The notes under the pieces were generated by a model. That model did not search any database. It was given only the letters and a program-made list of their open reading frames with translations, and was not told the DNA's origin. This document shows, in pieces, positions 1,690-25,543 of a stretch of 26,392 nt of DNA. Source of the DNA: a virus; the IMG/VR virus record IMGVR_UViG_3300027969_000377, positions 1 to 26,392 of that record. One strand, 5' to 3'. Position numbers and translations under genes: made by a program. The first letter of the stretch is position 1; every line of letters starts with the position of its first letter.

Positions 1690-4600
1690 ATGCCGTCAGT
1701 CAACATACCATATGTTGGCGTAGTTGAGTTTCCTGACACGATGTCTTCTGATGAAATATCTAATGTCATTAAAACTCAAATTATGCCTAATGCGCCACAA
1801 GCAAATGTTGCTCCTGTGGCTGGTTCTACCAAAGTAGCTGACGTATTACAAAGATCAATATTTGGTCCAATTGATGCCATCATGCCAGGATCTAACCTGG
1901 CAAATGAACCAACCCCATCTATTGGTTCTTTGGCTAAAGGAATTAAATCATTATCTAATGTTCCTACCCAGTGGCAGTTATCTTCTCAATTAGAGTTAAT
2001 TGAAGCTAACAAAAGAAAGTATGGGCAAAACTTTGAAAATGCTCCAGAAAAAGAAAAATCAGACATTCTTAATACAGTTAAGAAGGCTAGTGAGAATTTA
2101 AGTTATTTAGCGCAGTCTGGAGAAGATGTCAAAGCCATTGAACAAAAGTATGGCAAAGACCCATTATCCAAAAAGATTGATGCTTTAGAACAAAAGCCAG
2201 AGTTTAAAAAAGCTACTGAATGGCAACAGGCTGGAATGATTGGCAAAGAATATCTTAAGAACATTGATGAGTTACCTTCTTATATTGCCAACGTAGGTCT
2301 AAGTAGTCTTCCACAGTCTATTGCTATGGCTGTAGCTGCCAGATTTGGTATGGCAGCTGGTCCAACAGGCGGTTTAATTGTTGGCGGTGGCTCTTCTGCA
2401 ATGATGGAATATGGTCAACAGTACGTTGAATTAAGAGAAAGAGGTTTTAACCACGAAGAAGCCAATAACAAGGCAATGGTTAAGTCATCAATCATTGGTA
2501 TGTTTGATGCAGCTTCTTTAAGGTCAGCTGGCAAAATTGCTGAAAAGATATTTGACAATACAGCTACCAAAGTTTGGAAAGAAACAGTCAAAGATGTTGC
2601 CAAAGAAATACCAAAGCAAGCTTCTTTAGGCGCTGCTGGTGAGGGATTAGGATCTTATGCAAGCAACCAGCCTGTTAATCCTAGAGCTGTATTAGAAGAA
2701 GCTATTGGTGAAGTATTTGGCGCTCCAGCAGAAGCAGCTGCAACTTATAAGAGTAAGAAAGCAGAAGCTGAACAAGTACCCCCCTCCCCCCCTCCTGCCC
2801 CACCAGCCGTTGTTCCAGCTCCTAATGCCCCTTCTGCCCCTCCTTCTGGTTTGGTAGACGAAAGTGATCTAGAAACTTTTGTCCCACCTAATGCGCCACC
2901 ATCAGCAACACCTGTTGCAGTAGTAGCACCTGTTGCAACAAGCGATTTAGAAACAAAAATAAATGATTGGGCTGCCAAAGCAGAAGCAACTGGCGAACCA
3001 AACACTAAAGAGTTAAATAAGATAGCTAAAGAATATGGCATTACTCCAGCAAAAGAGCCACAGCAAACACTTGGTCTTTTACTGGATAAGATGAGTGAAC
3101 AGACCACTGAGTCTGTTGCTCCCCCAGCTGAAACTATTCCTCCCATTGATATGGGTGAGAACACAGAATATCGTATTGTTAAAAATGACAATGGCTGGAC
3201 GGCTGTATTGTTTGACAATGATGCCAACCAAATGGTTTCTGCAACAACATTCCCAACAGACAAGTTTGGGGATCAAGAAGGCAAACAAAAAGCTATTGAG
3301 TTTGCTCAATCTGAAGCTGAAAAAGCTGCTCCATATAACCAAGAAGCACCAGAAGAAGCTCCTTCTGAAGAAAAGCCTTCTATATTTGACCAAGTTAAGA
3401 ATGGCGAATTTGCGGGAGAAGTTACAGCTGAAGATGCCCAACAAGCTATTGATAAGCTTGTAGAAGAAGACCAAGGCGATAAAGTAACTTGGGCAGCACC
3501 TCCTCCACTAACACCAGAAGAAATAGCTCAAAATAATCGTGATAGACAAGCTGCTCAACGTGCAGAAGCACAAGGGGAAACTGTTCCTACTGTAGCGCCA
3601 GAAGCTACTGGAGAAGCCCTATCTCCAGAAGCACAAGCCGATAAAGACTTGATGGATGCTTTGGGTGAGCTATCTTGGATGGCTAGTAAAAATACCCGTA
3701 TGAATATGATGCCTGAGGATGAACAACGCCTCATGCCTACCCTTATTAAGCTTATGGATGCTGCTTTCCGTAAGGGTTATCACACCTTTAAGAAAGCCGC
3801 CAAATTTGTTCGTGACCTTATTAAACAAGCTTTTGGTAAAGATGTATCAGACAAAATTAATCTAAACCACCTTCAAGGTGCTTATATTGCTATGTCTGGC
3901 AACTATCCAGATAAAGCTACACCAATTGCTGAAGTGGCTGGTGTTAAGGCAATAGAAGAAATTGAAGTTGAAGAAGCTAAACCTGCTGGCAAGTTAGATT
4001 TAACCACTCCAGATGGCAAATACAACATTGCTTTGGTATTAGCTGACCATTTCTTAGAAGGTAATGCGTTCAGCACCATTGTTGAAGCTCGTAAATTTAT
4101 CTCTGAGTTGACTGGTGAGAAGATTGAAGCTGCCACCATGCAAGCCAAACAAGCTGATGAGGCGGTAGAAGTTGGTATCGTATTGGCTGCGCAAGAGATT
4201 TCTCAGAATTCCAAGTCACCTACAGAGGCGTATGACAGATTAGTAGACTTGTACAACAGACAGCCTAACTTGGCGGTTCGTTCCTCTACCAGCGTTAGAG
4301 AACAGGCTTACTCTACCCCAGCTCCGTTAGCGTATGTTGCCAGCCAATTAGCTGGAATCAACCAAAATACCACTGTTTATGAGCCAACTGCTGGTAACGG
4401 GATGCTTTTGATTGCAGCCAACCCTAACATTGTTATAGTTAACGAGCTGAACTCTAGCCGTGCTGAAATGCTTAAAAGGGTTTTCCCTAAAGCTGAAGTT
4501 ACTGTTGGTAATGCTTTAAAGCAAGAAGCAACTTTAGTAGACGTTGTTATTGAGAATCCTCCGTTTGGCTCTACTGGTGAAAACTTTGATATTGATGGGT

Positions 4601-7600
4601 TTAAAACCAGAGAAATAGACCATGCAATCGTAATGAAGTCTTTGCAGAACATGAAACCAAGTGGTAAGGCTGTCTTAATAATTGGCGGTGTTCGGGCTGA
4701 AGGCGAAGATGCTAGAAAAGAAGGTTATCGTTCAGCTGCGAAACGAAACTTCTTTGTTAATTTATACGACAAATACAACGTAGTAGATCATTTTTCAGTG
4801 TCTGGTGATATGTATACCAAACAGGGAGCTAGTTACCCTGTAGATGTTATTGTGATTAATGGGGATGGCAAAGCAGAAAGAGCATTGCCAGCTGCGGAAT
4901 TGCCACAACAAATCAATTCTTATGAAGAACTCAAGGAGAAATTAAATGCCAGCATGGTATCCAGAGCAAATGTCAGCCCCAGTGGGACTAACATCGGTAA
5001 ACGTACCCCAGGGGGAGCTAACCAGGAAAATGTGGCTGGAAGCCCTAGCGGACAGGCTAGTAGACCTAGTGGAGGAGAGCAACAATCCACAGGAGCTGGC
5101 AAACCAAATGTGCCAACAAATGGGGCTGGCATCAGTGGAAGACCCGAATCAACTGGGGCAGGTACTGGTGAAAAACAACCTAAACCTGCTAACAAACCTG
5201 ACAATGCTCCAGAGGGAAGTACCGTTCCCAGCGCAGGTAAGCCAAAGCAACCCCCTAGCGGAAAAGGCGCTGAAGGAAACAAGCCTGGAGGAGTGGGTGG
5301 AACTAGCGTTGTCAGTGGAGAACGCATCCAGTCTCGACTAAATGATCGTAGAGGCAAGGAAGAAGTTACCGAAGGTCAAGTTCCTTATCAACCTAAGTCA
5401 AAAGCTAACTCTGTTGGTACGCTTGTACCAGGTGGTATGGCTCAATCCATTAGGGAATCCCTGGACAAAGTTGAAGCGCAAGTTGGTGACATTGATGAAT
5501 ATGTATCAAAAGAGCTTAAGTTTACTAAGGATGAACTGTTTAATAACTTTTCAGCCGAGCAAATTGACTCTTTAGCACTGTCTATTTTCAACGCAGATGC
5601 TGGTCAAGGTTTCATTATTGGCGATCAAACTGGTGTTGGTAAAGGTCGTGTAGTGGCTGCAATGATTAAATACGCATTGAAAAATGATCGTATTCCTATT
5701 TTTGTAACGCAATTCCCTAATCTGTTCTCCGATATGATCCGTGACTTGGATGATATTGGCATGACTAAAGAGCTTGCATTGGATACTACTGATCCTAAGA
5801 TCTTTATGACCAACGTAGATCAGAAAGTTCCTTACAAGTTAGTTAGAACTGTTAATGGAGAAAAGGTAGAGAAAGAATTAACTTTAGAGCCATTCTCTAC
5901 AGATAGACCTAAACAAAATGCCAAGATGAAAGAGTTGGCAGCCCAAGGTAATTTGGGTAATTACAAGGTTATCTTTACAACTTACAAGCAATTACAGAAC
6001 GTCAAAGGTAAAGCTACTGAACGTCAACGCTTTGTTCAAGCATTAGCCGATCAGAACTACCTTATCCTTGACGAAAGCCACAATGCTGGCGTAGCTGGCA
6101 AAGAAGGAACTGAAGGTCAACAAGAAGGTGGAGATCTTGGAGAAGGAGTAGTCAGCGAGATTATTGCTCCAAACATTGGTTCGTTCATCCGTATGTTGGT
6201 TAATGATGCCTATGGCTCATTCTTCTCATCTGCTACCTATGCAAAACGTGCAGACATCATGGACTTGTATGCCAGCACAGACATGAAGCTGGCGGTTAAA
6301 AAGATCTCTGACCTAGCTGAAGCCATCAAAAATGGTGGTATTCCAATGCAACAGATTGTTGCCAATATGCTTGCCAAGGTTGGTCAATACATTCGCAGAG
6401 AACGCACCTTTGCTGGGGTTTCATATAACACTGAAGAAACCAAAGTAAACAAAGAAACAGCAGAGAACATGGCTACCTCAATGCGAGATATCCTGGCTTT
6501 CTCTCGTGCTGTAGGCATTGCTGGTAAGAAATTAGCGGGAAGTTTAGATACTTCTGGTGCGGTATTAGCCAAGAAAAAAGATAGAGTCAATGTTGAAACA
6601 GTCAATTTTGGCTCAACAATGCACAACTTGATTGACCAGATGTTGCTTTCTTTGAAAGCCCAAAGCTCTGTAGATCATGCAATATCAAGGTTAAAAGCTG
6701 GTGAAAAGGTAGTTCTTACTGTGTCTAACACAATGGGTTCTTTCCTTGAAAGTTATTCAGATGAAATGGAACTCAAAAAGGGTGATCCAATTAATCTGAA
6801 TTTTTCAAACCTTTACCTAAAGTATTTGAAGAAACAAAGACAAGTCACCATTAAGTATCCAGCTAAGAATGGCAATCCATCTTACAAAGAAGTGCGTGAT
6901 TTAACTGATGAGGAACTTGGGCCTGAATTAACTGTTGCCTATAACGCTATTGTTAAATTCATTCAAAACGCAGGATTTGAAGATGCTCCTGTATCTCCAA
7001 TTGACTATATGCACTACAAGTTACGTCAAGCTGGGTTTAAAACTGGCGAGATTACAGGTAGAAATATTGGTATCAATTACTCTGGTGCAACAGAGGCTTC
7101 AATACCTACGCTGCAAGCTATTAAAAATACTACCAAAACCAAGTACGAAGCTATTACTAAGTTTAATGGTGGTGAATTTGACGTATTGATTTTGAATCAA
7201 GCTGGCTCTACTGGCTTGTCTTTACACGCCTCTGAGAACTTTAAAGATCAACGCAAACGCCATATGATTATTGTTCAGGCTGAAAAGAACATTGATACCC
7301 ATATGCAGATGCTAGGTCGTGTTCACAGAACTGGTCAAATCATTCCTCCTGCTTACTCACAGATGATGGCTGACATCCCTGCTGAGATGCGCCCAGCTGC
7401 CATTTTGCTTAAAAAGATGGCATCACTGAACGCAAATACTACAGCTTCCCGTAAGTCTGCCGTGACTGCGGAAGGTGCTGTGGACTTTATGAATGACTAT
7501 GGCGGTCAGGTAGCCAATGAGTTGCTGGCTGATAACCCAGACTTGCATGAATCTTTGGGTGGCGATAATGCGTTCCCAGTTAAAGAAAACTCTAGCGAAG

Positions 7601-10600
7601 CTACCGAAGAAGATGTCCGTAAGCTGACTGGCTATATTCCTATCCTGCCTATTAAAGAGCAAGAAGAGTTCTACAAAGACCTAACAGAACGATATAAAGA
7701 GTTGCTAGATCGTGAGATCAGCATGGGGACTAACAAGCTTGAAGCAAAAGCACTGGACATCAATGCAAAAACATTAAGCTCTACCCCAATTACCGAGAAC
7801 AAAGGTGACTCATTATTTGCTCAACCAGCATTTATGGAATTAATTGAGGCTGATCGTACTGTTAAGCCAATGAGTTCTGAAGAAGTTATTGAGGCTGCCA
7901 AGAAAAATTTGGATGGCAAATCTCCAGGTCAGCTGTCTTTGGAGCAAAGAGATGCTCTGACAGCAAAGATGAGAGCTTATACTGCCGAAAGAATAGAACT
8001 AGAAGTAGAAAAGAAATCAGATGAGGTTCGTTTATCTACTGTCAGGGGTCAGTTAAACCTACAGGAAACCCATATTGATTCTATTTTAAGAACTTACACA
8101 GTTGGCAAGTTTGTCACCCTTACTAATGAGTTAGGTGTGGCTTTAACTGGTGCAATCATTGATGTTAAAAATGTAGGCAAAACCAAGAACCCAGCTGCTG
8201 GTACTGACTGGAAGATGACTTTTGCCTTGGCTAATGGTGATGCTAGGTCAATTACTTTGCCATTCTCACAGATTGGTAAGCAATACAAGTTAGAAACTGT
8301 ATCAAGCACCAATACCTTTAACTACGAAACTCAACAGTTTGAGGACATTCCTGTTATCAAACAGTTTGATATGGGTTCACAGATCAGACGTGAAAAGCGT
8401 TGGATGGTAACTGGAAACATCCTTGCTGGCTTTGCAGCGGTTAAAAACAAGGGTCAGATTACCAACTTCAAAGACAACGAAGGCTATGAACGTCAAGGTA
8501 TCTTGATGCCTCGTGCCTACGACTTTGCCAAAGAACAGAAAGATGCGCCTGTAGAGATTGCAACGGCTGACAATGCCATGCGTTTCCTTGATGAGATTGG
8601 TGGAACAATCACTTCAGAAGATGGCATATTGCGGATTACCAAGTCTAGCTATGGAAACCAATACCAATTTAACGTCCCAAGCTCTAAGAAAGAAGGCGGT
8701 ACATACTTCCTAGACAGAAGGCTGACTGACATTCTGGGTGACTTCTACAAGTCTGGCAGCACTATGTATGCCAGGGGAACTGCAGAAGAAGCTAGAAAAG
8801 CTATTGATGTCATCCTCAATAAGCGCCAAGAGACTTTAGTTACCAAGGACAATAAAGAAAGAGCCAAAAAGCTTTTTGCTCCAGAGCCTTTGGAAAACAT
8901 TGTTCCTCGCAAGAAGACTACAAAACAAATCTTTGACAGCAGGGTCAGAAATGAAATTATTGCTGAACAGCGTAAGTTAAATGCACAGGAAAGAAAGCTA
9001 AAACGTCAAATAATCAATGGTGAAGTAACCCTTGATGCCCAGCGTGAGATGACTTTCATTGATGAAAGAACCAAAGAGCTTGAAGAAAACTTAGAAGCCA
9101 TCAAAGATAAAACCCCACCAGATGCGTTATCAGTGCATCAACGGGCTGAAAGAGCTTTACGGGATGGCGAGATTAGCCAAGACGTATTCAATGTTATCCA
9201 TTGGATGTGGAATAACTCTCCTGCTCTGTTGACTGGTTTAAAACTGCAAATTAGAAAACCAACTTCTAAGGAAGAAGGGGCAACGGGTTCATTTAACCCA
9301 TTAGATCGTTTAGTTCGTTTGTATAAGGGAACAGAAGGGGTAACTGACCCAGAGACTGCCCGTCACGAATTAACCCACACTCTTGAACAGATGATGACCC
9401 CACAGGTCAGGAAGCTAATTGTTCAGCAGTGGGCAAAAGAAACTAAAAAAGCTATTAAGAACAATACTGATCCTGCTTCTCAGGATTACTTCCAAGCCAT
9501 CAATGATTACATGGCTAACCCAACTAAGGCAAATTACGAAAAAGTAAGGGAGCTAGTAAAAGATTTAAACCTCTATCAATACGCTAACCCATCAGATTAC
9601 TGGGCGGTTAATGCCGAGAAGCTCATGGCTATGAAGATGGGGACTGCTTGGAATCGTTTTGTATTGGCGGTTAAGAAGCTATTTGAAGGCATGAAATCTT
9701 TATTTGGCTTTGACAATCAATACATCCTATACAAAACCTTTGATGATTTGATGAAGGGCAAGACACCAAGGATGGATTACGAATCCTTGAAGCACTTCTT
9801 TGATATGACAGGTCCGTCAAATGAGTTGTTGTTCAATATTGCCGATGATGTGAAATTGCTCGATAAGATTGGAGTTGAGCAACCTCCAGTGCATACCAAC
9901 AATACTGTCCAAGACTACCTCATGGGCGGTTATCAAACGGCTAAGAACATCAAAACCAGAATATTGGAATCCCCAAGAAACCTGATTCCTGGTGCAGTGA
10001 CTGGCATAGACAAGCTGGCATTAGGATTCCGAGTTAAAGCAACTGACTTTACAGCAGGTCTGGCAGCTGAAGATGCTGTTAGATATGACAGAGAGCTGTT
10101 AGATGGCGAAGGTCGTGCTGTTGCTTCTATCGCAGCAGACCAGCAGTTAAAGGCTAACCACATTGCTACTCAAGTAGTTACTTTAGGCAAGTTGGCATTT
10201 GACCCAGTTAATCAGATGTTTAAAGCTACAGAAGACAAGAACTCTACTGGTAAGATCATTCAGCTTGCCCATGAATTTGGCAAAGAAGTAGGTGTTAAAC
10301 ACGCTTTTAGGGTAATCAATGGTTACTTTGAAGCCAAGCGTTCACGCAGCATTGTGAATGAATACCTCAAGCGCCAAGGTGAACTTGAAACATTAAAGAC
10401 AGAAGCTTTAGACCCAGACTTGCCTCCAGATCGTCAGTTGGCGTTGACAGTTGCAATTCAAAACGCCCAAGAAAACTTTGAAGGCATTGATATTGCTCGT
10501 CAGAAAGTTAACCTTAAAGATACTGAGATTGACGATCTAATAGCTTTAGAAAAGAAATATCCTGTTCTTAGAGAGATGATGGATATTTGGAATGATGTAA

Positions 10601-12741
10601 GCCGAAACATGGTCAACATGATGGAGTTTGGCAAGATTATTAGCAAACAAACTGCTGATATGTATCGCAAGATTGATGACTATGTGCCTTGGCAGCGAAT
10701 CCAACCAGAAGATATTAGCCAAGATCCTAGTAAGCCTACATTCTTCTATGGTGCTAAAGGTGTCCGTAACGTCTCCAGGGAGCATAAATTTAAGCCAGGT
10801 GAAGTTGAGTTGGCATTAAACAATGTCCTGGACAACATGGTTAATCATGTCGTTTTGACCTCTAGAAACGTCATTAAGAACTACGCTGCTAATCGTATTG
10901 CATCTGAATATGGTGAGCGCAATGAAAAAGGTAAGCTTAAAGTCTATCCAAAAGAAGACTTTGCTCGTGGCATCGTCAAAATTCTGGTAAATGGTCGCAA
11001 GATCAATATCCGCATCGTAGATCCATTGATTGCTCAAGCCGTGATTGGCATGGAAAGCATGAACATTCCTTTAATGGGATTGATGGGCTTTGGCGCACAG
11101 ACCCTGCGTAGAACCATTACTTACTCTGGAGTATTCCAGTTAAGACAGTTGTTTATGGATATTCCAAGCACCATCCTTGTTACTGGTGTTAGAAACCCAT
11201 TAAGCTTTTATGGCTCGGTATTTGGGTCTTTCGTTAAGTCTTTAAACAACAATGACCCAGTAGTGAAGATACTTAAGGCGCATGGCATTGGCAATATCTA
11301 TTCCAGCTCTAGAACTTCAATGCAGTATTACGACCAAACCATTGGTTTGTTAAATGGATCAAAGCTGCAACAGACTATTTCTTTGTTAGAGAAGATTGGC
11401 GATGCCTCCGACATGGCTCCTCGCAGAGCTACTTATCTGCGTGTAATGAAAGAAACTAAAGGGGATCAGCGTAAAGCCCTGTTAGCTTCTGCCAATGTGA
11501 TTAACTGGGATAAAAAGGGTTCGTCCAAAGTTGCCCAGACTTTAGCCCACTCTATCTCCTTTATGAACGCATTTGCCCAACAGATTGACGTTCTGTCCCA
11601 AGCTTTACTAGAACCTGTTGCCTATGGGGTAGAAAAGACTACAGGTGCTAAAGTAAAAAGCGTTAGCGGTGGTCTAAAAGGTCAAGCTCGTACAGAAGCT
11701 ATTGAGCGTTTAGCTACGGCAATTGCCTGTATGCAGATTGGTATGCTGATGTATCTGTTTGCCATTGGTGATGATGAGGAATACCAAAGGTTAGATGACC
11801 AGACCAAGATGCGTAACTTCTTTGTCCCAAGAAAGTTAATGAAACAGATTGGCTATGACCATTCATTGCTTATTCCTTTGACAACGACTGCTGGATACCT
11901 AGTTAAAGCTATCCCTGAGATGACTTACAACAGGATCATTACCCAAGGCACTAAGAATGAAGTTGATGCAACCCGCTTCTGGAAAGCTCTTAGACATGGC
12001 GGTATTGATGCCCTGTTAGGACCTCTGGCTTCTGGTCCAGTGCCAACAGTGTTCAAGCCATTTGTTGAGATTGGTATCAACCATAACTTCTTTACTGGCG
12101 GTAAGGTAGTTCCTGAAAGCATGAAGCACCTAGAAGCTTATAGACAATACAATGCCAATGTCTCCCAGTTAGGAAAATGGTTAAGCGCTGCCACCCAAGT
12201 TCCATTTACAGGCAAAAAAGATGACAAGGGTGAGCTTGTAGAAGGTAGCAAAAAACGAATTCTTAGCCCAATTGAGGCTGACCATTTAGCTCGTGGCTTG
12301 TTTGGCTCTGTCGCTGGCTTAACTATGTGGATGAGTGATCTTCTGTCTAGCAATAAGCCAACTAAGGAAGAACGCAACAATCCTCTCTATGGCTCGTTTG
12401 TAGCTCCAGAAGTTCCTCGTGGCAGGGAAGATCTTTTCTATGACCTTAAAGCACGTTCTGACGTTGCTATGACTACCTTTAAGACAGAGATGAAGAACAT
12501 GAACCCAACACAAGGTAAGAAGTGGTTTGAGGCTAACAAAGGTCTTATCCAGGCTAATGGATTTACTCAGTCAGCTGGCGCATCTCTTAATGCAATTACT
12601 GGTCAGATCCGTAGGATTGAGGACTTGCCAGAAAAAGAGATGTCTGCTCAAGAAAAGCGCAAAGAAATCAACTTCTTAAAAGGTAAAAAAGAAGAGATTT
12701 TGCAAGACACTATTAGATTCCGTCTCAAAGCTGGATTGTAA
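1690..12741 (+). CDS. Giant polyvalent virion protein: methyltransferase, strawberry-notch-type helicase, zinc peptidase
   Basis: 3,683 residues. Order: N-terminal IPYVGVVEFPDTMSSDEIS (about 6-24), a motif typical of phage virion proteins; helical region with a hydrophobic Gly-rich segment (about 203-237); Pro/Ala linkers (363-420 and about 550-655); DNA methyltransferase with EPTAGNG (898-904, SAM motif I) and NPPFG (956-960, catalytic motif IV of N6-adenine enzymes); Gly/Pro/Ser linker (about 1097-1210); SF2 helicase of the strawberry-notch type with GDQTGVGKGR (1311-1320), LDESH (1460-1464), AGSTGLSLHA (1838-1847) and QMLGRVHRTGQ (1873-1883); HELTH zinc-peptidase motif (2559-2563), possible third ligand E2643; C-terminal region with a likely membrane segment (about 3341-3359). 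P1 DarB also pairs methyltransferase and helicase and protects DNA against type I restriction. Injection with the DNA and antirestriction are inferences. The start lies 6 nt after the previous stop without a clear ribosome binding site, suggesting translational coupling. Confidence 0.9.
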   Translation: MPSVNIPYVGVVEFPDTMSSDEISNVIKTQIMPNAPQANVAPVAGSTKVADVLQRSIFGPIDAIMPGSNLANEPTPSIGSLAKGIKSLSNVPTQWQLSSQLELIEANKRKYGQNFENAPEKEKSDILNTVKKASENLSYLAQSGEDVKAIEQKYGKDPLSKKIDALEQKPEFKKATEWQQAGMIGKEYLKNIDELPSYIANVGLSSLPQSIAMAVAARFGMAAGPTGGLIVGGGSSAMMEYGQQYVELRERGFNHEEANNKAMVKSSIIGMFDAASLRSAGKIAEKIFDNTATKVWKETVKDVAKEIPKQASLGAAGEGLGSYASNQPVNPRAVLEEAIGEVFGAPAEAAATYKSKKAEAEQVPPSPPPAPPAVVPAPNAPSAPPSGLVDESDLETFVPPNAPPSATPVAVVAPVATSDLETKINDWAAKAEATGEPNTKELNKIAKEYGITPAKEPQQTLGLLLDKMSEQTTESVAPPAETIPPIDMGENTEYRIVKNDNGWTAVLFDNDANQMVSATTFPTDKFGDQEGKQKAIEFAQSEAEKAAPYNQEAPEEAPSEEKPSIFDQVKNGEFAGEVTAEDAQQAIDKLVEEDQGDKVTWAAPPPLTPEEIAQNNRDRQAAQRAEAQGETVPTVAPEATGEALSPEAQADKDLMDALGELSWMASKNTRMNMMPEDEQRLMPTLIKLMDAAFRKGYHTFKKAAKFVRDLIKQAFGKDVSDKINLNHLQGAYIAMSGNYPDKATPIAEVAGVKAIEEIEVEEAKPAGKLDLTTPDGKYNIALVLADHFLEGNAFSTIVEARKFISELTGEKIEAATMQAKQADEAVEVGIVLAAQEISQNSKSPTEAYDRLVDLYNRQPNLAVRSSTSVREQAYSTPAPLAYVASQLAGINQNTTVYEPTAGNGMLLIAANPNIVIVNELNSSRAEMLKRVFPKAEVTVGNALKQEATLVDVVIENPPFGSTGENFDIDGFKTREIDHAIVMKSLQNMKPSGKAVLIIGGVRAEGEDARKEGYRSAAKRNFFVNLYDKYNVVDHFSVSGDMYTKQGASYPVDVIVINGDGKAERALPAAELPQQINSYEELKEKLNASMVSRANVSPSGTNIGKRTPGGANQENVAGSPSGQASRPSGGEQQSTGAGKPNVPTNGAGISGRPESTGAGTGEKQPKPANKPDNAPEGSTVPSAGKPKQPPSGKGAEGNKPGGVGGTSVVSGERIQSRLNDRRGKEEVTEGQVPYQPKSKANSVGTLVPGGMAQSIRESLDKVEAQVGDIDEYVSKELKFTKDELFNNFSAEQIDSLALSIFNADAGQGFIIGDQTGVGKGRVVAAMIKYALKNDRIPIFVTQFPNLFSDMIRDLDDIGMTKELALDTTDPKIFMTNVDQKVPYKLVRTVNGEKVEKELTLEPFSTDRPKQNAKMKELAAQGNLGNYKVIFTTYKQLQNVKGKATERQRFVQALADQNYLILDESHNAGVAGKEGTEGQQEGGDLGEGVVSEIIAPNIGSFIRMLVNDAYGSFFSSATYAKRADIMDLYASTDMKLAVKKISDLAEAIKNGGIPMQQIVANMLAKVGQYIRRERTFAGVSYNTEETKVNKETAENMATSMRDILAFSRAVGIAGKKLAGSLDTSGAVLAKKKDRVNVETVNFGSTMHNLIDQMLLSLKAQSSVDHAISRLKAGEKVVLTVSNTMGSFLESYSDEMELKKGDPINLNFSNLYLKYLKKQRQVTIKYPAKNGNPSYKEVRDLTDEELGPELTVAYNAIVKFIQNAGFEDAPVSPIDYMHYKLRQAGFKTGEITGRNIGINYSGATEASIPTLQAIKNTTKTKYEAITKFNGGEFDVLILNQAGSTGLSLHASENFKDQRKRHMIIVQAEKNIDTHMQMLGRVHRTGQIIPPAYSQMMADIPAEMRPAAILLKKMASLNANTTASRKSAVTAEGAVDFMNDYGGQVANELLADNPDLHESLGGDNAFPVKENSSEATEEDVRKLTGYIPILPIKEQEEFYKDLTERYKELLDREISMGTNKLEAKALDINAKTLSSTPITENKGDSLFAQPAFMELIEADRTVKPMSSEEVIEAAKKNLDGKSPGQLSLEQRDALTAKMRAYTAERIELEVEKKSDEVRLSTVRGQLNLQETHIDSILRTYTVGKFVTLTNELGVALTGAIIDVKNVGKTKNPAAGTDWKMTFALANGDARSITLPFSQIGKQYKLETVSSTNTFNYETQQFEDIPVIKQFDMGSQIRREKRWMVTGNILAGFAAVKNKGQITNFKDNEGYERQGILMPRAYDFAKEQKDAPVEIATADNAMRFLDEIGGTITSEDGILRITKSSYGNQYQFNVPSSKKEGGTYFLDRRLTDILGDFYKSGSTMYARGTAEEARKAIDVILNKRQETLVTKDNKERAKKLFAPEPLENIVPRKKTTKQIFDSRVRNEIIAEQRKLNAQERKLKRQIINGEVTLDAQREMTFIDERTKELEENLEAIKDKTPPDALSVHQRAERALRDGEISQDVFNVIHWMWNNSPALLTGLKLQIRKPTSKEEGATGSFNPLDRLVRLYKGTEGVTDPETARHELTHTLEQMMTPQVRKLIVQQWAKETKKAIKNNTDPASQDYFQAINDYMANPTKANYEKVRELVKDLNLYQYANPSDYWAVNAEKLMAMKMGTAWNRFVLAVKKLFEGMKSLFGFDNQYILYKTFDDLMKGKTPRMDYESLKHFFDMTGPSNELLFNIADDVKLLDKIGVEQPPVHTNNTVQDYLMGGYQTAKNIKTRILESPRNLIPGAVTGIDKLALGFRVKATDFTAGLAAEDAVRYDRELLDGEGRAVASIAADQQLKANHIATQVVTLGKLAFDPVNQMFKATEDKNSTGKIIQLAHEFGKEVGVKHAFRVINGYFEAKRSRSIVNEYLKRQGELETLKTEALDPDLPPDRQLALTVAIQNAQENFEGIDIARQKVNLKDTEIDDLIALEKKYPVLREMMDIWNDVSRNMVNMMEFGKIISKQTADMYRKIDDYVPWQRIQPEDISQDPSKPTFFYGAKGVRNVSREHKFKPGEVELALNNVLDNMVNHVVLTSRNVIKNYAANRIASEYGERNEKGKLKVYPKEDFARGIVKILVNGRKINIRIVDPLIAQAVIGMESMNIPLMGLMGFGAQTLRRTITYSGVFQLRQLFMDIPSTILVTGVRNPLSFYGSVFGSFVKSLNNNDPVVKILKAHGIGNIYSSSRTSMQYYDQTIGLLNGSKLQQTISLLEKIGDASDMAPRRATYLRVMKETKGDQRKALLASANVINWDKKGSSKVAQTLAHSISFMNAFAQQIDVLSQALLEPVAYGVEKTTGAKVKSVSGGLKGQARTEAIERLATAIACMQIGMLMYLFAIGDDEEYQRLDDQTKMRNFFVPRKLMKQIGYDHSLLIPLTTTAGYLVKAIPEMTYNRIITQGTKNEVDATRFWKALRHGGIDALLGPLASGPVPTVFKPFVEIGINHNFFTGGKVVPESMKHLEAYRQYNANVSQLGKWLSAATQVPFTGKKDDKGELVEGSKKRILSPIEADHLARGLFGSVAGLTMWMSDLLSSNKPTKEERNNPLYGSFVAPEVPRGREDLFYDLKARSDVAMTTFKTEMKNMNPTQGKKWFEANKGLIQANGFTQSAGASLNAITGQIRRIEDLPEKEMSAQEKRKEINFLKGKKEEILQDTIRFRLKAGL
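2779..2801. other. C-run tract, potential G-quadruplex on the minus strand
   Basis: Runs of 6, 7 and 4 C (2779-2784, 2786-2792, 2798-2801) are separated by short spacers and encode part of a Pro-rich linker of the giant protein. The complementary strand has enough G runs for a G-quadruplex. The tract is unusual in this AT-rich sequence. Confidence 0.5.
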
Positions 12742-13197: not shown

Positions 13198-13227
13198 TTA
13201 ACTCAGTTTACTGCTAGGGAGAACTAA

Positions 13228-14103
13228 ATGAAGCTAACTAATAAATTTAACATTCCACAGACATTCGTTAATGTCTTAGAAAGACCAACTTACTCCAAAG
13301 GTAAGGCTAATCTGTCTGTTACTCAGTTGATTAACAGTCCCAAGATTGTTGCCCTGACCAAGAAGTACGATGAAGATATTGAGCAGGATGTAGCCGACAT
13401 GGTTTGGTCATTGTTTGGCTCTGCCGTCCATAACATCCTAGAACATGGCAAGGATGAGAACCACATAGTCGAGCAACGCATCCATGCCGAGTTAGAAGGG
13501 TGGCATATTAGCGGTGCGGTAGACCTACAGGTCAACCATGAGGGCGGTGTATCCATCAAAGACTACAAAACCACCAGTGTTTGGGCGGTAATGAATGAGA
13601 AGATTGAATGGGAATACCAACTCAACATCTACGCTTGGCTAGTGGAAAAGGTTCGGCAGATGCCTGTTACCGATCTAGGCATTGTGGCTATCCTGCGTGA
13701 CTGGAAAGCTAGAGAAGTAGAAACCAAGGAAGGCTACCCTGAAGCCCCAATCAAGGAAGTGCCTATTACCTTGTGGACTATGGAAGAAAGGGAAGAGTTC
13801 ATTAAAGCTCGTATCTCTGTTCATTCAGCTTGTGAATTTGCTTTAGAAACTGATGCAGACTTGCCTGAATGTACTTCTGAAGAGATGTGGGAAAAGCCAC
13901 CAGTTTGGGCTATTAAGAAGATTGGCGGTAAAAGGGCGCACTCACTATACCAAACGGCAGAAGAGGCTAATCAAGCCATCTTTCCACTAGGTAGTGCCTA
14001 TGAAATAGAAGTACGCAAAGGCGAAAGAACTCGTTGTGCAAGCTATTGCCCTGTTAGTCAATGGTGCAATCAATATCAAAATTACTTGAAGGAACAAGCA
14101 TGA
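13228..14103 (+). CDS. Cas4/RecB-like PD-(D/E)XK nuclease with Fe-S-type cysteines
   Basis: 291 residues after a good ribosome binding site (TAGGGAGA). Visible motifs: GSAVHNILE (64-72) with the conserved His, GAVDLQV (97-102) with the metal-binding Asp, SIKDYKTT (109-116) giving D-x-K, and QLNIYAW (131-137), the QxxxY motif of RecB-type nucleases. Cys215 with the C-terminal set Cys270, Cys274 and Cys280 fits the four-cysteine iron-sulfur cluster of Cas4/AddB enzymes. These act on DNA ends to make single-stranded tails. The next gene is a single-strand annealing protein, so the pair probably forms a Red-like recombination module. It is the first gene of the early operon and shares ATGA with the next. 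No CRISPR genes are present, so a CRISPR role is not supported. Confidence 0.85.
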   Translation: MKLTNKFNIPQTFVNVLERPTYSKGKANLSVTQLINSPKIVALTKKYDEDIEQDVADMVWSLFGSAVHNILEHGKDENHIVEQRIHAELEGWHISGAVDLQVNHEGGVSIKDYKTTSVWAVMNEKIEWEYQLNIYAWLVEKVRQMPVTDLGIVAILRDWKAREVETKEGYPEAPIKEVPITLWTMEEREEFIKARISVHSACEFALETDADLPECTSEEMWEKPPVWAIKKIGGKRAHSLYQTAEEANQAIFPLGSAYEIEVRKGERTRCASYCPVSQWCNQYQNYLKEQA

Positions 14104-15424: not shown

Positions 15425-15827
15425 AGCCGTCAAAGTAGCCCTAAAGCAGGATAAGACAGGCTATGTCCTGACCTTATCTCTGCACCCAGACGAGATCCCA
15501 GAAGACTTACTTCGGGATTTTGTTGGGGCTAGATACCAAGCCGTCCTTGTCAGAATGGATGGCAATGAGAACCCAATGGATAAAGCCCAAGAGTTTGCAG
15601 GAGACAGGGCTATTCGGATTGCAGGGTTACTTTGCCGAGATCCTAAGTTCTGGAAGTTCTTACATTCTGATGATCGCATCTTTGACGAGGACATGGAAGA
15701 AGCCACTGAATGGGTGCGTAGCTATCTTAATATTCCATCTAGGGCAGATCTTAAAACAAATCGGGAAGCACAAATCCTATTGGACAGACTACACAGAGAG
15801 TATACGGAATGGACACAAAAAAACTAA
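15405..15827 (+). CDS. Conserved phage hypothetical protein
   Basis: 140 residues, starting inside the previous gene. The pattern 'LSLHPDEIPEDLLRDFVGARYQAVLVRM' (split here: LSLHPDEIPEDLL, then RDFVGARYQAVLVRM) with a C-terminal helical segment WVRSYLNIPSRADLKTN is familiar from phage recombination/replication operons. I cannot attach a function. No catalytic motif is obvious. The position between annealing and regulatory genes suggests an accessory to DNA metabolism. Confidence 0.65.
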   Translation: MKTLQFEAVKVALKQDKTGYVLTLSLHPDEIPEDLLRDFVGARYQAVLVRMDGNENPMDKAQEFAGDRAIRIAGLLCRDPKFWKFLHSDDRIFDEDMEEATEWVRSYLNIPSRADLKTNREAQILLDRLHREYTEWTQKN

Positions 15828-17466: not shown

Positions 17467-17690
17467 CTACCTTTACAACCCAAGACAGAGAAGAGGAAGA
17501 ACAGTATCTTCGTCTGCAAATCAAGATTCAGCAGGACGAAATAGACCGCCTAAATGGTAGAATAATGCTCGTTGAAAAAGAAAGAGATGCCTATCAAATG
17601 GCTTATTCTGCCTTGTTAAACCACAATATATCCAAAAGTGTCCGTCTTAACAAAGACGATGAAGACTTCGACATGGATGGTCGTTGTTAA
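17463..17690 (+). CDS. Small coiled-coil hypothetical protein
   Basis: 75 residues after a near-perfect ribosome binding site (AAGGAGGGCGA). Residues 8-50 (EEEEQYLRLQIKIQQDEI, DRLNGRIMLVEKERDAY) show heptad-like spacing of hydrophobic residues, so it is probably a coiled coil. The tail is acidic (DDEDFDMDG). Function unknown; a scaffold or partner of an adjacent nuclease is possible. Confidence 0.6.
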   Translation: MTTFTTQDREEEEQYLRLQIKIQQDEIDRLNGRIMLVEKERDAYQMAYSALLNHNISKSVRLNKDDEDFDMDGRC

Positions 17691-17980
17691 TGTATCGAAA
17701 TAGGAAATTACTTGATTTACTTAGAAAATCCCCATGCCAGATATGTGGTAGAGAAGACGGCACAGTTGTGGCTGCACATTCCAATCAGCTTCGGGATGGT
17801 AAAGGCAGAGGACTTAAAGCCCATGACTACCGATGCGCTGCCCTATGTTTCACCTGCCATGCTGATATTGACCAGGGCAAATTGCTCTCCAAGGCTGAAC
17901 GTATTGAAGCGTGGGAGGAAGCACACCGCAAAACAATTGGCTGGTTATTTGAGAATAACCACATAAATACAACATATTGA
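17690..17980 (+). CDS. ybcO-like: YbcO-like nuclease (DUF1364)
   Basis: 96 residues from the ATG at 17690, which overlaps the preceding TAA by one base; an in-frame TTG six bases upstream is possible but less likely. Cys16 and Cys19 (CQICG), His30 (AAHSNQ), the GKGRGLKAHD segment and Cys53, Cys56 and His57 (CFTCH) reproduce the DUF1364 pattern of lambdoid-prophage YbcO. That family is a small HNH-like metal-dependent nuclease. It is the last gene of the first early block. Its stop codon overlaps the -35 box of the next promoter. Recombination or host-DNA cleavage is inferred. Confidence 0.8.
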   Translation: MYRNRKLLDLLRKSPCQICGREDGTVVAAHSNQLRDGKGRGLKAHDYRCAALCFTCHADIDQGKLLSKAERIEAWEEAHRKTIGWLFENNHINTTY

Positions 17981-18007
17981 CAAAATTTTGTAGTTTTGTG
18001 CTATATT
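17977..18007 (+). promoter_or_regulatory. Promoter of the candidate small RNA
   Basis: A perfect TTGACA (17977-17982) overlaps the stop of the preceding gene. TGCTATATT (17999-18007) provides an extended -10 (TG-n-TATATT, 5 of 6). The spacer is 19 bp, longer than ideal but compensated by the extended -10. Predicted start is near 18014, exactly where a hairpin begins. Confidence 0.6.
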
Positions 18008-18013
18008 TAGTAG

Positions 18014-18127
18014 GTCAGCCCACTCTGACACGCACATTACTTCTCCTAGCAGAGACTTGTGCAATGCAAGCCCTCGGATCAACACACGATCCTAAACCCC
18101 CAGCCTAAAAAACTGGGGGTTTTTCTT
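18014..18127 (+). ncRNA. Candidate trans-acting small RNA (about 114 nt)
   Basis: There is no credible + strand ORF between the promoter and a strong terminator. Predicted architecture: 5' hairpin GTCAG/CTGAC (18014-18029); an unpaired pyrimidine-rich stretch holding CACATTACTTCTCCTAGC (18033-18050); a small hairpin CTTGT/GCAAG (18056-18070); hairpin GGATC/GATCC (18076-18092); terminator (18094-18127). An exposed seed between stem-loops is the usual layout of bacterial regulatory RNAs. The seed is an anti-Shine-Dalgarno sequence perfectly complementary, over 18 nt, to the initiation region of the mini-ORF at 18186. It is partly complementary to the ribosome binding sites of the genes starting at 18527 and 25454. 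Everything here is predicted from sequence; transcription is unproven. Confidence 0.55.
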
Positions 18128-18190
18128 TGTCAAACTATTGCAAATAATTTTCAGCCGTAGTAACCTAGTCGGGCTAGGAGAAGTAATGTG
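18033..18190. repeat. Perfect 18-bp inverted repeat around the small-RNA terminator
   Basis: CACATTACTTCTCCTAGC (18033-18050) is the exact reverse complement of GCTAGGAGAAGTAATGTG (18173-18190), separated by 122 bp. The right arm contains AGGAG and an ATG at proper spacing. A third related segment, TACTTCTCC (18223-18231), can pair with the right arm as well. Such a match over 18 bp is not expected by chance in a region this small. Confidence 0.9.
18094..18127 (+). terminator. Strong Rho-independent terminator of the small RNA
   Basis: AAACCCCCAG (18094-18103) pairs over 10 bp with CTGGGGGTTT (18113-18122), with loop CCTAAAAAA and a T-rich tail TTTTCTTT. The orientation is rightward; the opposite strand lacks a U-tract after the stem. 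Confidence 0.85.
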
Positions 18191-18263
18191 TAGACAAACG
18201 ATTAAGTTCGTATGTTTGTGCCTACTTCTCCCTGCCGTACTCCAAACGATATCAAGAACCTAA
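18186..18263 (+). CDS. Candidate 25-aa hydrophobic peptide, possible type I toxin
   Basis: ATG at 18186, preceded by AGGAG at ideal 5-nt spacing (GCTAGGAGAAGTAATG), opens a 25-codon frame ending TAA. The peptide has a basic N-terminus (MCRQTIK), a hydrophobic core (FVCLCLLLPAVL) and a polar end (QTISRT). This is the size and layout of membrane-acting type I toxins such as Ibs, ZorO, ShoB or DinQ, though I see no sequence match to them. Its ribosome binding site can be hidden by pairing with TACTTCTCC inside its own coding region. It is also perfectly complementary to the upstream small RNA. No convincing separate promoter is visible, so it may depend on readthrough. It could instead be a leader peptide or no gene at all. 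Confidence 0.4.
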   Translation: MCRQTIKFVCLCLLLPAVLQTISRT

Positions 18264-18471
18264 CTGGGTTGCGTGGAAGAGAACATAGGCTAATCATTCA
18301 CCCGATTGCAAGCCTCGTAGCCTTAAATGGGGACTACACAAGAGGGATAGACCAGTGGTGAGACAAACTATCCATCGATTGAACATTAACTCAGGTAGGA
18401 CTGGATGTATTCATACATTGGGTCAGGTGTGATGCTTATCACCCTTGGGGTAACTATGGATGAGATTTATG
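18264..18471 (+). other. Intergenic region rich in hairpins, no gene seen
   Basis: No ORF with a good ribosome binding site. Several inverted repeats are visible: a bulged CCTC-TAG / CTA-GAGG hairpin near 18313-18345, GGATAG/CTATCC near 18346-18374, ATGTAT/ATACAT near 18406-18419 and GTGAT/ATCAC near 18428-18441. This may be a structured leader, part of a larger noncoding RNA or an origin-like region. The evidence is inspection of stems only. Confidence 0.35.
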
Positions 18472-18499
18472 TTGTATGTTTGTTATTTTTTGCTAAACT
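18472..18499 (+). promoter_or_regulatory. Promoter of the ParB-like/helicase/primase operon
   Basis: TTGTAT (18472-18477), 16 bp, then TAAACT (18494-18499) preceded by TGC, an extended -10. The start would fall near 18506 on the small palindrome GGAATTTCC (18500-18508), which could bind a regulator. The ribosome binding site AGGAG is at 18516-18520. Confidence 0.45.
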
Positions 18500-18526
18500 G
18501 GAATTTCCATTTGCTAGGAGAAAGAA

Positions 18527-19333
18527 TTGAAAAAATTAAATATATCCGTCATTCGTATTGATGGCGGAACACAATCAAGAAAAGAACTAAACCAATACAA
18601 AGTAGCTGAATACGCTGATTTAATGAAGGATGGGGTCGTATTCCCACCCATTACAGTGTTCTTTGATGGATCTGATTACTGGCTTGCATCAGGATTCCAC
18701 CGCTACTTTGCCACCAAGACCAATAACATTGTTTCCATTGAGTGCGACATCAAAGACGGCACTGTCAGGGATGCCAAACTGTTCGCCTATGGCGCTAACA
18801 ATCATGGGCTACCCCATACGGCAGAAGAGAAGCGTGAAATCGCCTTGAATATGTTTAAGGACTCTGAATGGAACAAATGGTCAAATGCCACCATTGCCAA
18901 GCACATTGGTGTGTCAGCCATGACCATAGGTCGTATCCGTAAGTCACTGGATGAACCGCAAAAGGATGAGATTGTCTACCTTAAAGACGGCAAAGAGACT
19001 GTGATGAAGACCAAGAACTTGGGCAAAAAGAAGGAAGAACCCAAGGTAGAGGTTACAGAAGCCGATCCAGTAGAGGAAAAGATTCAGGAATTGACAGACA
19101 CCATCGTCATACTGGATAAGGAACTAACCCAAGCTAGAGATGTCATCGCTACCAAACGATGGAACGCAAGCGAGATTGAGGTTGAGGACATACACGATAC
19201 AGTAATCAATTTGCGTGAGCAGATTCGTGTCCTTGAGATTGATAACAAAGCTTTGCGTGATAGCAGAGATATGTATCAGAAAAGGAACGCAGAACTGATT
19301 CGTCAGTTAAAAGCCCAAGCCAAGAAGAAGTAA
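18527..19333 (+). CDS. ParB-like DNA-binding protein (TTG start)
   Basis: 268 residues from TTG at 18527; the strong AGGAG at 18516-18520 sits 6 nt before it and no better ATG is near, so the TTG is preferred. Residues 14-62 carry the ParB/Srx-type N-terminal pattern: GTQSR, then FPPITVFFDGSDYWLASGFH with a conserved Gly-Phe-His-Arg. Residues 118-140 (WSNATIAKHIGVSAMTIGRI) form a helix-turn-helix. Residues 190-268 look like a long coiled coil ending in Lys-rich sequence. ParB-like N-domains bind nucleotides in partition proteins; phage versions have varied regulatory or nuclease-like roles. It is first in a three-gene operon with helicase and primase, so it may bind an origin or control replication. 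The TTG start and complementarity of its ribosome binding site to the upstream small RNA suggest limited translation. Confidence 0.8.
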   Translation: MKKLNISVIRIDGGTQSRKELNQYKVAEYADLMKDGVVFPPITVFFDGSDYWLASGFHRYFATKTNNIVSIECDIKDGTVRDAKLFAYGANNHGLPHTAEEKREIALNMFKDSEWNKWSNATIAKHIGVSAMTIGRIRKSLDEPQKDEIVYLKDGKETVMKTKNLGKKKEEPKVEVTEADPVEEKIQELTDTIVILDKELTQARDVIATKRWNASEIEVEDIHDTVINLREQIRVLEIDNKALRDSRDMYQKRNAELIRQLKAQAKKK

Positions 19334-24986: not shown

Positions 24987-25454
24987 TTACCAACTGGCTT
25001 GATAGCTAAATGAGTATTCGTCAGGTAGTGCCAAAACCCTTTCCAAACCCTCTACAGTGTTCTTCAGGTCTTGGTAATACCATTCGTCTTTTTCATACGA
25101 ACCAAAGAAAAACCCTTGCGTTGGCTCTAGGTCTGCATCCCTTTCGGCATCAGGATGTTCCAGTATGTCCTTGCACAAATCATGCAGGGTTTGCAACTGG
25201 CTTCTTTCTACCTCGTATTCTCGGCAGTTATCCTCCCCATCCTGCACTACATTCACGAACCATCCATGAATGGCATTGGCTTTCCTCCAATACATAGCTT
25301 CAAGGGATATCTCTTTCACGACCAGACTTGAACCATTGAATCGTCTTTCCTGATCGCCCTGAACCCCGATAATCTCGCCTACTTGTTCCGATATCGCTTT
25401 GTCTTTGTCAGACCACAAGTAGCGTTTTGCTGATAAATACATATCTAAACCCAT
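24987..25454 (-). CDS. Conserved phage protein, MGLDMYL family (155 aa)
   Basis: 155 residues after CTGCTAGGAGATTGAA, a strong ribosome binding site. Begins MGLDMYLSAKRYLWSDKDKA and contains EAMYWRKANAIHGWFVNVVQ, DNCREYEV and GFFFGSYEKDEWYYQDL. This is a well-defined family I recognise from many phages and mobile elements, with invariant Trp/His and acidic residues, but I know of no assigned activity. Its ribosome binding site is complementary over 11 nt to the small-RNA seed at 18041-18052. Confidence 0.8.
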   Translation of the reverse strand: MGLDMYLSAKRYLWSDKDKAISEQVGEIIGVQGDQERRFNGSSLVVKEISLEAMYWRKANAIHGWFVNVVQDGEDNCREYEVERSQLQTLHDLCKDILEHPDAERDADLEPTQGFFFGSYEKDEWYYQDLKNTVEGLERVLALPDEYSFSYQASW

Positions 25455-25543
25455 TTCAATCTCCTAGCAGTTAATCAAAGACCACCTTACTGCATCGTTC
25501 ACTCAATTAAGGTGATTCAGGTGGTTTCGCCCTTACAGGCTCA
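25455..25543 (-). promoter_or_regulatory. Leader region with hairpin before the MGLDMYL gene
   Basis: The 89-bp gap is the largest in the leftward cluster. ACCACCT (25481-25487) pairs with AGGTGGT (25519-25525). No convincing -35/-10 pair was found leftward. It may be a processing site, attenuator or unrecognised promoter region. Confidence 0.35.

Follow-up and report, generated by a model that had tools for sequence, protein, structure and literature searches.

A two-RNA control switch with a co-evolving antisense seed predicted in freshwater phages

Introduction

In the ColE1 RNAI/RNAII system, a long structured RNA carries in its 5′ domain the target of an antisense RNA of ~110 nt, and the system is marked by alternative folding and diverging specificity. 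The zor/orz, tisB/istR, and shoB/ohsC loci comprise a small RNA and its target in tandem, with a short antisense match near the start codon. Among phages, the CI RNA of P4 and the c4 RNAs of P1 and P7 are immunity antisense RNAs (PMC4825925, PMC12197685), and SprY is a prophage-encoded sponge RNA (PMC12197685).

Here, we analyzed a 26,392-base stretch, the IMG/VR virus record IMGVR_UViG_3300027969_000377, which we call the window. It carries one instance of a previously undescribed two-RNA control switch of freshwater phages, which is made up of a putative antisense RNA (sRNA1) and a structured partner RNA (RNA2) whose predicted 5′ end, T, is the sRNA1 target. Judged from sequence, this module resembles P4 CI RNA, P1 c4 RNA, and ColE1 RNAI but has none of the defining features of these systems that were tested. 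It shares with ColE1 the size of the antisense RNA, the 5′-domain target, the alternative folding, and the diverging specificity; however, sRNA1 is not cis-antisense, its seed is short and in two parts, and the RNA2 bodies are swapped between unrelated classes. The tandem layout and short antisense match recall zor/orz, tisB/istR, and shoB/ohsC, whereas no conserved peptide is found here and it is a non-coding RNA whose 5′ end is targeted. As in P4 CI and c4, a small phage RNA displays an antisense sequence in a loop and would act on a nearby phage transcript via its 5′ leader, but P4 CI is processed from the transcript of its own target and acts by termination (PMC4825925, PMC12197685), while sRNA1 has its own predicted promoter and terminator. 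The target here is instead the 5′ end of a structured non-coding RNA, and a tyrosine integrase (PF00589) was found in none of 30 records, several of them 61 to 65 kb long, so that a role in lysogen immunity has no support from this search. Also encoded by a phage, SprY pairs with a regulatory RNA (PMC12197685), but in the present module both partners belong to the same phage and appear to co-evolve. No system uniting a hypervariable co-evolving seed with interchangeable structured bodies and a ribosome-binding-site regulon was found in the open-licence literature searched.

Results

The relatives comprised 48 IMG/VR loci collected using the ParB-like and helicase neighbor genes as queries, 16 contig stretches retrieved with a pattern on the conserved 3′ side of the seed, and additional loci obtained with patterns for two RNA2 bodies; individual loci are designated by L numbers. 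Genes for ParB, helicase, and primase lie just downstream of RNA2, and a tRNA search of the window returned none. Searches for protein-coding or cultured-phage relatives of the locus gave weak matches at most; by these searches, the phages carrying the module have no close cultured representative. Elsewhere in the window, a single open frame at 1690-12741 encodes 3,683 residues of methylase- and helicase-looking sequence, and its predicted product looks like a large polyvalent phage protein. The features of the RNA pair and of its putative targets are collected in Table 1.

Table 1. Features of the two-RNA module and of its predicted targets in the window
Feature	Position	Strand	Basis
sRNA1 promoter, TTGACA ... 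TGC TATATT	17977..18007	+	sequence
sRNA1, four-hairpin antisense RNA, ~115 nt	18012..18127	+	fold z -4.4; 30 relatives
sRNA1 hairpin 2, GCACA...UGUGC, seed in loop	18032..18062	+	folds; stem exchanges
Seed, variable CACATTACTT plus constant CTCCTAGCAG	18033..18052	+	complementarity and comparison
RNA2 promoter, TTGCAA-N17-TAACCT	18138..18166	+	box in place in nearly all T-bearing loci
T, sRNA1 target, predicted 5′ end of RNA2	18173..18190	+	18/18 complementary; co-varies
25-codon open frame	18186..18263	+	judged no conserved gene
A2, cis partner of T, closes RNA2 5′ hairpin	18223..18241	+	inverted repeat; comparison
RNA2 body, class A structured RNA	18235..18455	+	16 distinct relatives aligned
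Extended ribosome-binding site GCTAGGAG of ParB-like gene (18527-19333)	18513..18520	+	ParB-like by PHROG
Extended ribosome-binding site CTGCTAGG of recombination exonuclease gene (13228-14103)	13211..13218	+	exonuclease by PHROG
Extended ribosome-binding site AACTGCTAGGAG of 155-aa gene (24987-25454)	25461..25472	-	motif position

A sequence-only reading of this DNA had described a promoter, several hairpins, and a terminator at sRNA1, and all of them can be read directly from the letters. The -35 box (17977-17982) and the extended -10 box (TATATT at 18002-18007, preceded by TGC) are separated by a spacer of 19, longer than the ideal 17, and relatives have a comparable TTGACA/TATATTTAG arrangement upstream of sRNA1. 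The predicted transcript opens with hairpin 1 (18014-18029), continues through the seed-bearing hairpin 2 and a further hairpin (18076-18092), and ends in an intrinsic terminator (18094-18127). Its fold (-36.6 kcal/mol, z -4.4) is more stable than those of all 200 shuffled sequences. The same order, i.e., promoter, hairpin 1, GCAC-variable-CTCCTAGCAG-...GTGC, hairpin 3, and terminator, is common to the 16 pattern-found stretches, with hairpin 3 built as GGATC/GATCC or GGTGA/TCACC in relatives. Since MAFFT aligned the diverged sRNA1 stems poorly, the architecture was judged from per-sequence folds, and nearly all of the 30 sRNA1s folded in this way gave four hairpins of identical architecture with the seed in a loop. 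The closing stem of hairpin 2 is formed by different complementary pairs in L004, L006, L007, L015, L037, and L090; across the folded sRNA1s, the hairpin 2 stems include GCAC/GTGC, TTGCCATT/AATGGCAA, CCGTCA/TGACGG, TACCGTCA/TGACGGTA, and GCCGTC/GACGGC. With its own promoter-like box, a terminator, and a conserved loop seed complementary to ribosome-binding sites, sRNA1 has, by sequence, the features of a trans-acting base-pairing small RNA with ribosome-binding sites as its predicted targets.

The seed consists of a constant part, CCUAGCAG, and a fast-changing 5′ flank. In the window, the match to T that the sequence-only reading had proposed holds at 18 of 18 positions: 18033-18050 and T form an inverted repeat of 18 nt with 100% complementarity, the longest perfect one in 17681-18826. 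By chance, ~1e-4 perfect 18-nt matches at distances within 300 nt would be expected in 26 kb (26392 x 300 / 4^18). When whole contigs were scanned with the seed, T was the top non-self site in the window and in six of seven other contigs, and ribosome-binding sites bearing the CTGCTAGG-type motif came next best or close. Co-variation was evaluated on 27 distinct seed/target pairs from which the constant block had been removed. The variable parts of cognate pairs had a mean energy of -15.6 kcal/mol, a value reached in 0 of 200,000 permutations, compared to -7.1 kcal/mol for non-cognate pairs, and nearly all cognate targets ranked their own seed first among all seeds. In two loci outside this set, L069 and L087, the seed predicted from T was found 180 to 240 nt upstream, inside an sRNA1 of the common architecture; in these two, the constant block as well is altered on one or both sides. 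Together, the co-variation and the two predicted pairs provide strong comparative evidence for RNA-RNA pairing.

The exception lies close at hand. Among independent contigs, L003/L054 is the closest, with 99.6% identity to the window across 5.9 kb; L003 is the only pair in which the match is clearly lost, its seed being altered and its T unchanged. Set against the conditions under which the earlier reading would fall, the outcome is mixed: the 25-codon frame at T is not conserved, and the antisense match is lost in the nearest relative, yet it is kept through co-variation in nearly all of the more distant ones. Of the 22 differences between the window and L003/L054, six are crowded into 33 nt in the seed hairpin (binomial p 2e-9, although recombination could also cluster changes). 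This clustering, with the seed changed and T intact, points to the seed as a hot spot of change. A search of IMG/VR for a lost partner of the new L003 seed returned no other match. Ten of the 22 differences to L054 lie within 240 nt (15494-15734), which suggests a small recombination patch separate from the seed.

The constant seed is complementary to an extended ribosome-binding site, AACUGCUAGGAG (also read as AACTGCTAGGAG), and about 60 distinct phage genes carry this motif 5 to 8 nt ahead of the start codon, mostly with AA before it. In the 27 records with sRNA1 and RNA2, CTGCTAGGAG occurs 113 times, compared to 3 times for the reversed control; roughly one occurrence per record is sRNA1 itself on the other strand, and the counts are not independent because the records are related. 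The motif is missing from 25 of 29 related records outside this set. Among the four records that do contain it, L036, L041, and L039 have an sRNA1-like RNA, and the L040 record ends before the place in question. Across these records, the putative ribosome-binding-site motif tracks the presence of predicted sRNA1 genes. In the window, three genes bear it, namely those for the exonuclease (start at 13228) and the ParB-like protein (18527) and the minus-strand gene starting at 25454, while the other main genes have ordinary ribosome-binding sites. That the constant seed covers the extended ribosome-binding sites of the ParB-like gene, the exonuclease gene, and small genes is well supported. Being constant, this complementarity gives little co-variation evidence; the homologous exonuclease gene of L069 has the same motif, and its ribosome-binding site alone seems to share the variable part of the seed. 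Upstream of parB-like genes (e.g., L004 2950-3000), a conserved promoter-like TTTGATAnACT abuts the AACTGCTAGGAG site, leaving a very short leader. In the leftward gene block (e.g., L093, L095, and L098), a small hairpin (e.g., GAAACATCCGAAAGGATGTCTTTGA) lies ahead of many small genes with a AACTGCTAGGAG site.

Since CTGCTAGGAG is almost palindromic, a dimeric protein could bind it, and the repeats might act as DNA, either as a protein-binding operator or as a cruciform. Both the CTSCTAGSAG symmetry and the location of the motif at gene starts would fit. Nevertheless, the motif is always in the sense orientation at ribosome-binding-site spacing in genes and antisense in sRNA1, the 8 to 11 bases beyond it co-vary by complementarity, and the sRNA1 stems co-vary while the terminator is kept; we consider a DNA-level role highly unlikely.

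RNA2 is preceded by its own promoter box, with the consensus TTGCAA-N17-TAAYCT in relatives, and in most of the 16 stretches a GCTAGG element lies 120 to 180 nt downstream, after this box. The predicted transcript start falls at T itself. The two RNAs thus have separate promoter-like boxes with a strong terminator between them, with read-through being possible. T is sequestered in cis by A2: in 26 distinct RNA2s, T and A2 form the 5′ and 3′ arms of a long hairpin, A2 changing alongside T, and 0 of 100,000 permutations reached the observed level of compensatory change. These comparisons show that T, unless captured, is predicted to be closed in a hairpin with A2, and that its pairing with sRNA1 at the 5′ end of a structured non-coding RNA appears to be maintained by co-evolution. 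The 5′-domain hairpin enclosing T amounts to roughly 35 to 50 kcal/mol. With T hidden in so stable a hairpin of the mature RNA2, only co-transcriptional capture would work. A switch in which A2 pairs with the ribosome-binding site of ParB was also considered and rejected, as the ParB-like gene has its own promoter-like box and may itself lie more than 1 kb away.

The sequence-only reading had taken T to be the ribosome-binding site and start of a putative type I toxin, a 25-aa hydrophobic peptide whose synthesis sRNA1 would block. The 25-codon frame (MCRQTIKFVCLCLLLPAVLQTISRT) does exist; it opens with AGGAG-5 nt-ATG, encodes a basic N terminus and a hydrophobic core, and has both its ribosome-binding site and its start covered by the seed. 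However, the frame and its start codon are restricted to this phage and two near-identical relatives, and the ATG falls within the variable part of T (L061 reads ACG-TG-TAG against ATG-TG-TAG in the window). No frame of at least 10 aa with any start codon was present at T in L024, L037, L042, L043, L044, L061, or L090, seven distinct relatives in which the RNA pairing is kept, and the remaining relatives have unrelated frames that differ in start codon, frame, and length. As the other relatives lack the 25-codon frame, the toxin-antitoxin reading is not supported, and we regard it as very improbable. The seed-T pairing is conserved, but the partner RNA has no conserved ORF; the idea of a new phage riboregulator that works by an antisense RNA in trans through a short seed holds up, whereas the hydrophobic-peptide toxin does not.

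Following the T:A2 hairpin, RNA2 contains a structured body of ~230 nt. In the window, this body belongs to class A, for which an alignment of 16 distinct sequences gave 47 consensus pairs, 26 of them with two-sided compensatory change. It matched no Rfam family, and the RF02932 covariance model gave no match in the window. Inspection distinguishes at least six (about six) interchangeable classes of body at this slot. Those of classes B and C match RF02932 (Betaproteobacteria-1 RNA) with E values of 1e-14 to 1e-17. The bodies of classes D (L043 and L006), E (L008/L015), and F (L044) had no Rfam match in the loci searched and probably represent further new structured RNAs. Behind a terminator-like hairpin, class A bodies are also present in other phages devoid of T or sRNA1, which argues that the body has an independent function. 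In these T-less phages (L066, L072-L086, and L009 at 2580-2700), a long terminator-like hairpin, AAGCCGTTTT...AAAACGGCTTTTTT, replaces the T:A2 hairpin before class A. In bacteria, RF02932 scored above the cut-off in 3 of 398 sampled genomes of the phylum, with no obvious sRNA1 or T adjoining the copies. One bacterial genome, represented by L108, L112, and L113, has up to three RF02932-like copies, each alone. Neither Betaproteobacteria-1 RNA nor RF02932 was mentioned in the open-licence literature searched.

These bodies bear on what RNA2 is for. RNA2 could be foremost a dedicated sponge, or anti-sRNA, that titrates the phage's own sRNA1 and thereby frees the marked genes, its 5′ end mimicking the ribosome-binding-site targets with a cognate extension and its body serving stability or timing. 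T indeed has the GCTAGG(AG) block of those targets plus 8 to 11 additional matching bases, as is typical of decoys. A target locked in the 5′-domain hairpin would, however, make a poor sponge, and the bodies are long, conserved, and also found without T, which points to a role of their own; a sponge is thus conceivable but, in our view, unlikely. Alternatively, RNA2 might be a replication pre-primer whose folding is spoiled by sRNA1, such that sRNA1 binding sets the copy number and the incompatibility between related phages. The ColE1 logic of a small antisense RNA, a 5′ target, a refolding long RNA, and diverging specificities is all here, and RNA2 adjoins replication genes. Against such copy control, the gene for sRNA1 does not lie on the strand opposite RNA2, and there are several unrelated classes of RNA2 body, one of which also stands alone in bacterial chromosomes. 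An origin at the RNA pair, looked for by GC skew, was also rejected: the skew shows no change at the pair and turns instead at ~21.5 kb, together with the change of coding strand. Overall, we find copy control quite improbable.

Discussion

The model that we favor, and hold to be reasonably probable, is a phage two-RNA antisense module that affects both the folding of RNA2 and a ribosome-binding-site regulon. We infer the direction and purpose of this regulation from sequence features, as follows. If abundant enough, sRNA1 would catch T while RNA2 is still being transcribed and A2 has yet to appear, and the captured RNA2 would be unable to fold or would be degraded. Translation initiation at the motif-marked genes would be blocked by sRNA1 as well. 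As genome copies multiply and sRNA1 accumulates with them, RNA2 and the marked genes, presumably early functions, would be turned down, and the cognate variable part would make the sRNA1 of each phage specific for its own RNA2. The L003 seed, which no longer fits its own T, counts against this model, as does the presence of sRNA1 without T in some phages (L009 and L036).

A bolder and rather improbable extension is that the pair forms an RNA-only self/non-self module between competing phages. The hypervariable seed and target would then be a password: sRNA1 would silence the ribosome-binding-site motif or RNA2 of co-infecting relatives, the cognate RNA2 would tune the phage's own sRNA1, and the interchangeable bodies would be a slot for RNA effectors.

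The module offers dozens of natural, independently diverged antisense pairs within one phage group, and hence a data set on the evolution of RNA-RNA specificity. RF02932, an Rfam family of unknown function, is placed in a genomic context and given a promoter and a candidate regulator, and class A is a new structured RNA that occupies a slot also used by RF02932. Finally, a post-transcriptional regulon is predicted in phages that, by these searches, are without a close cultured representative.
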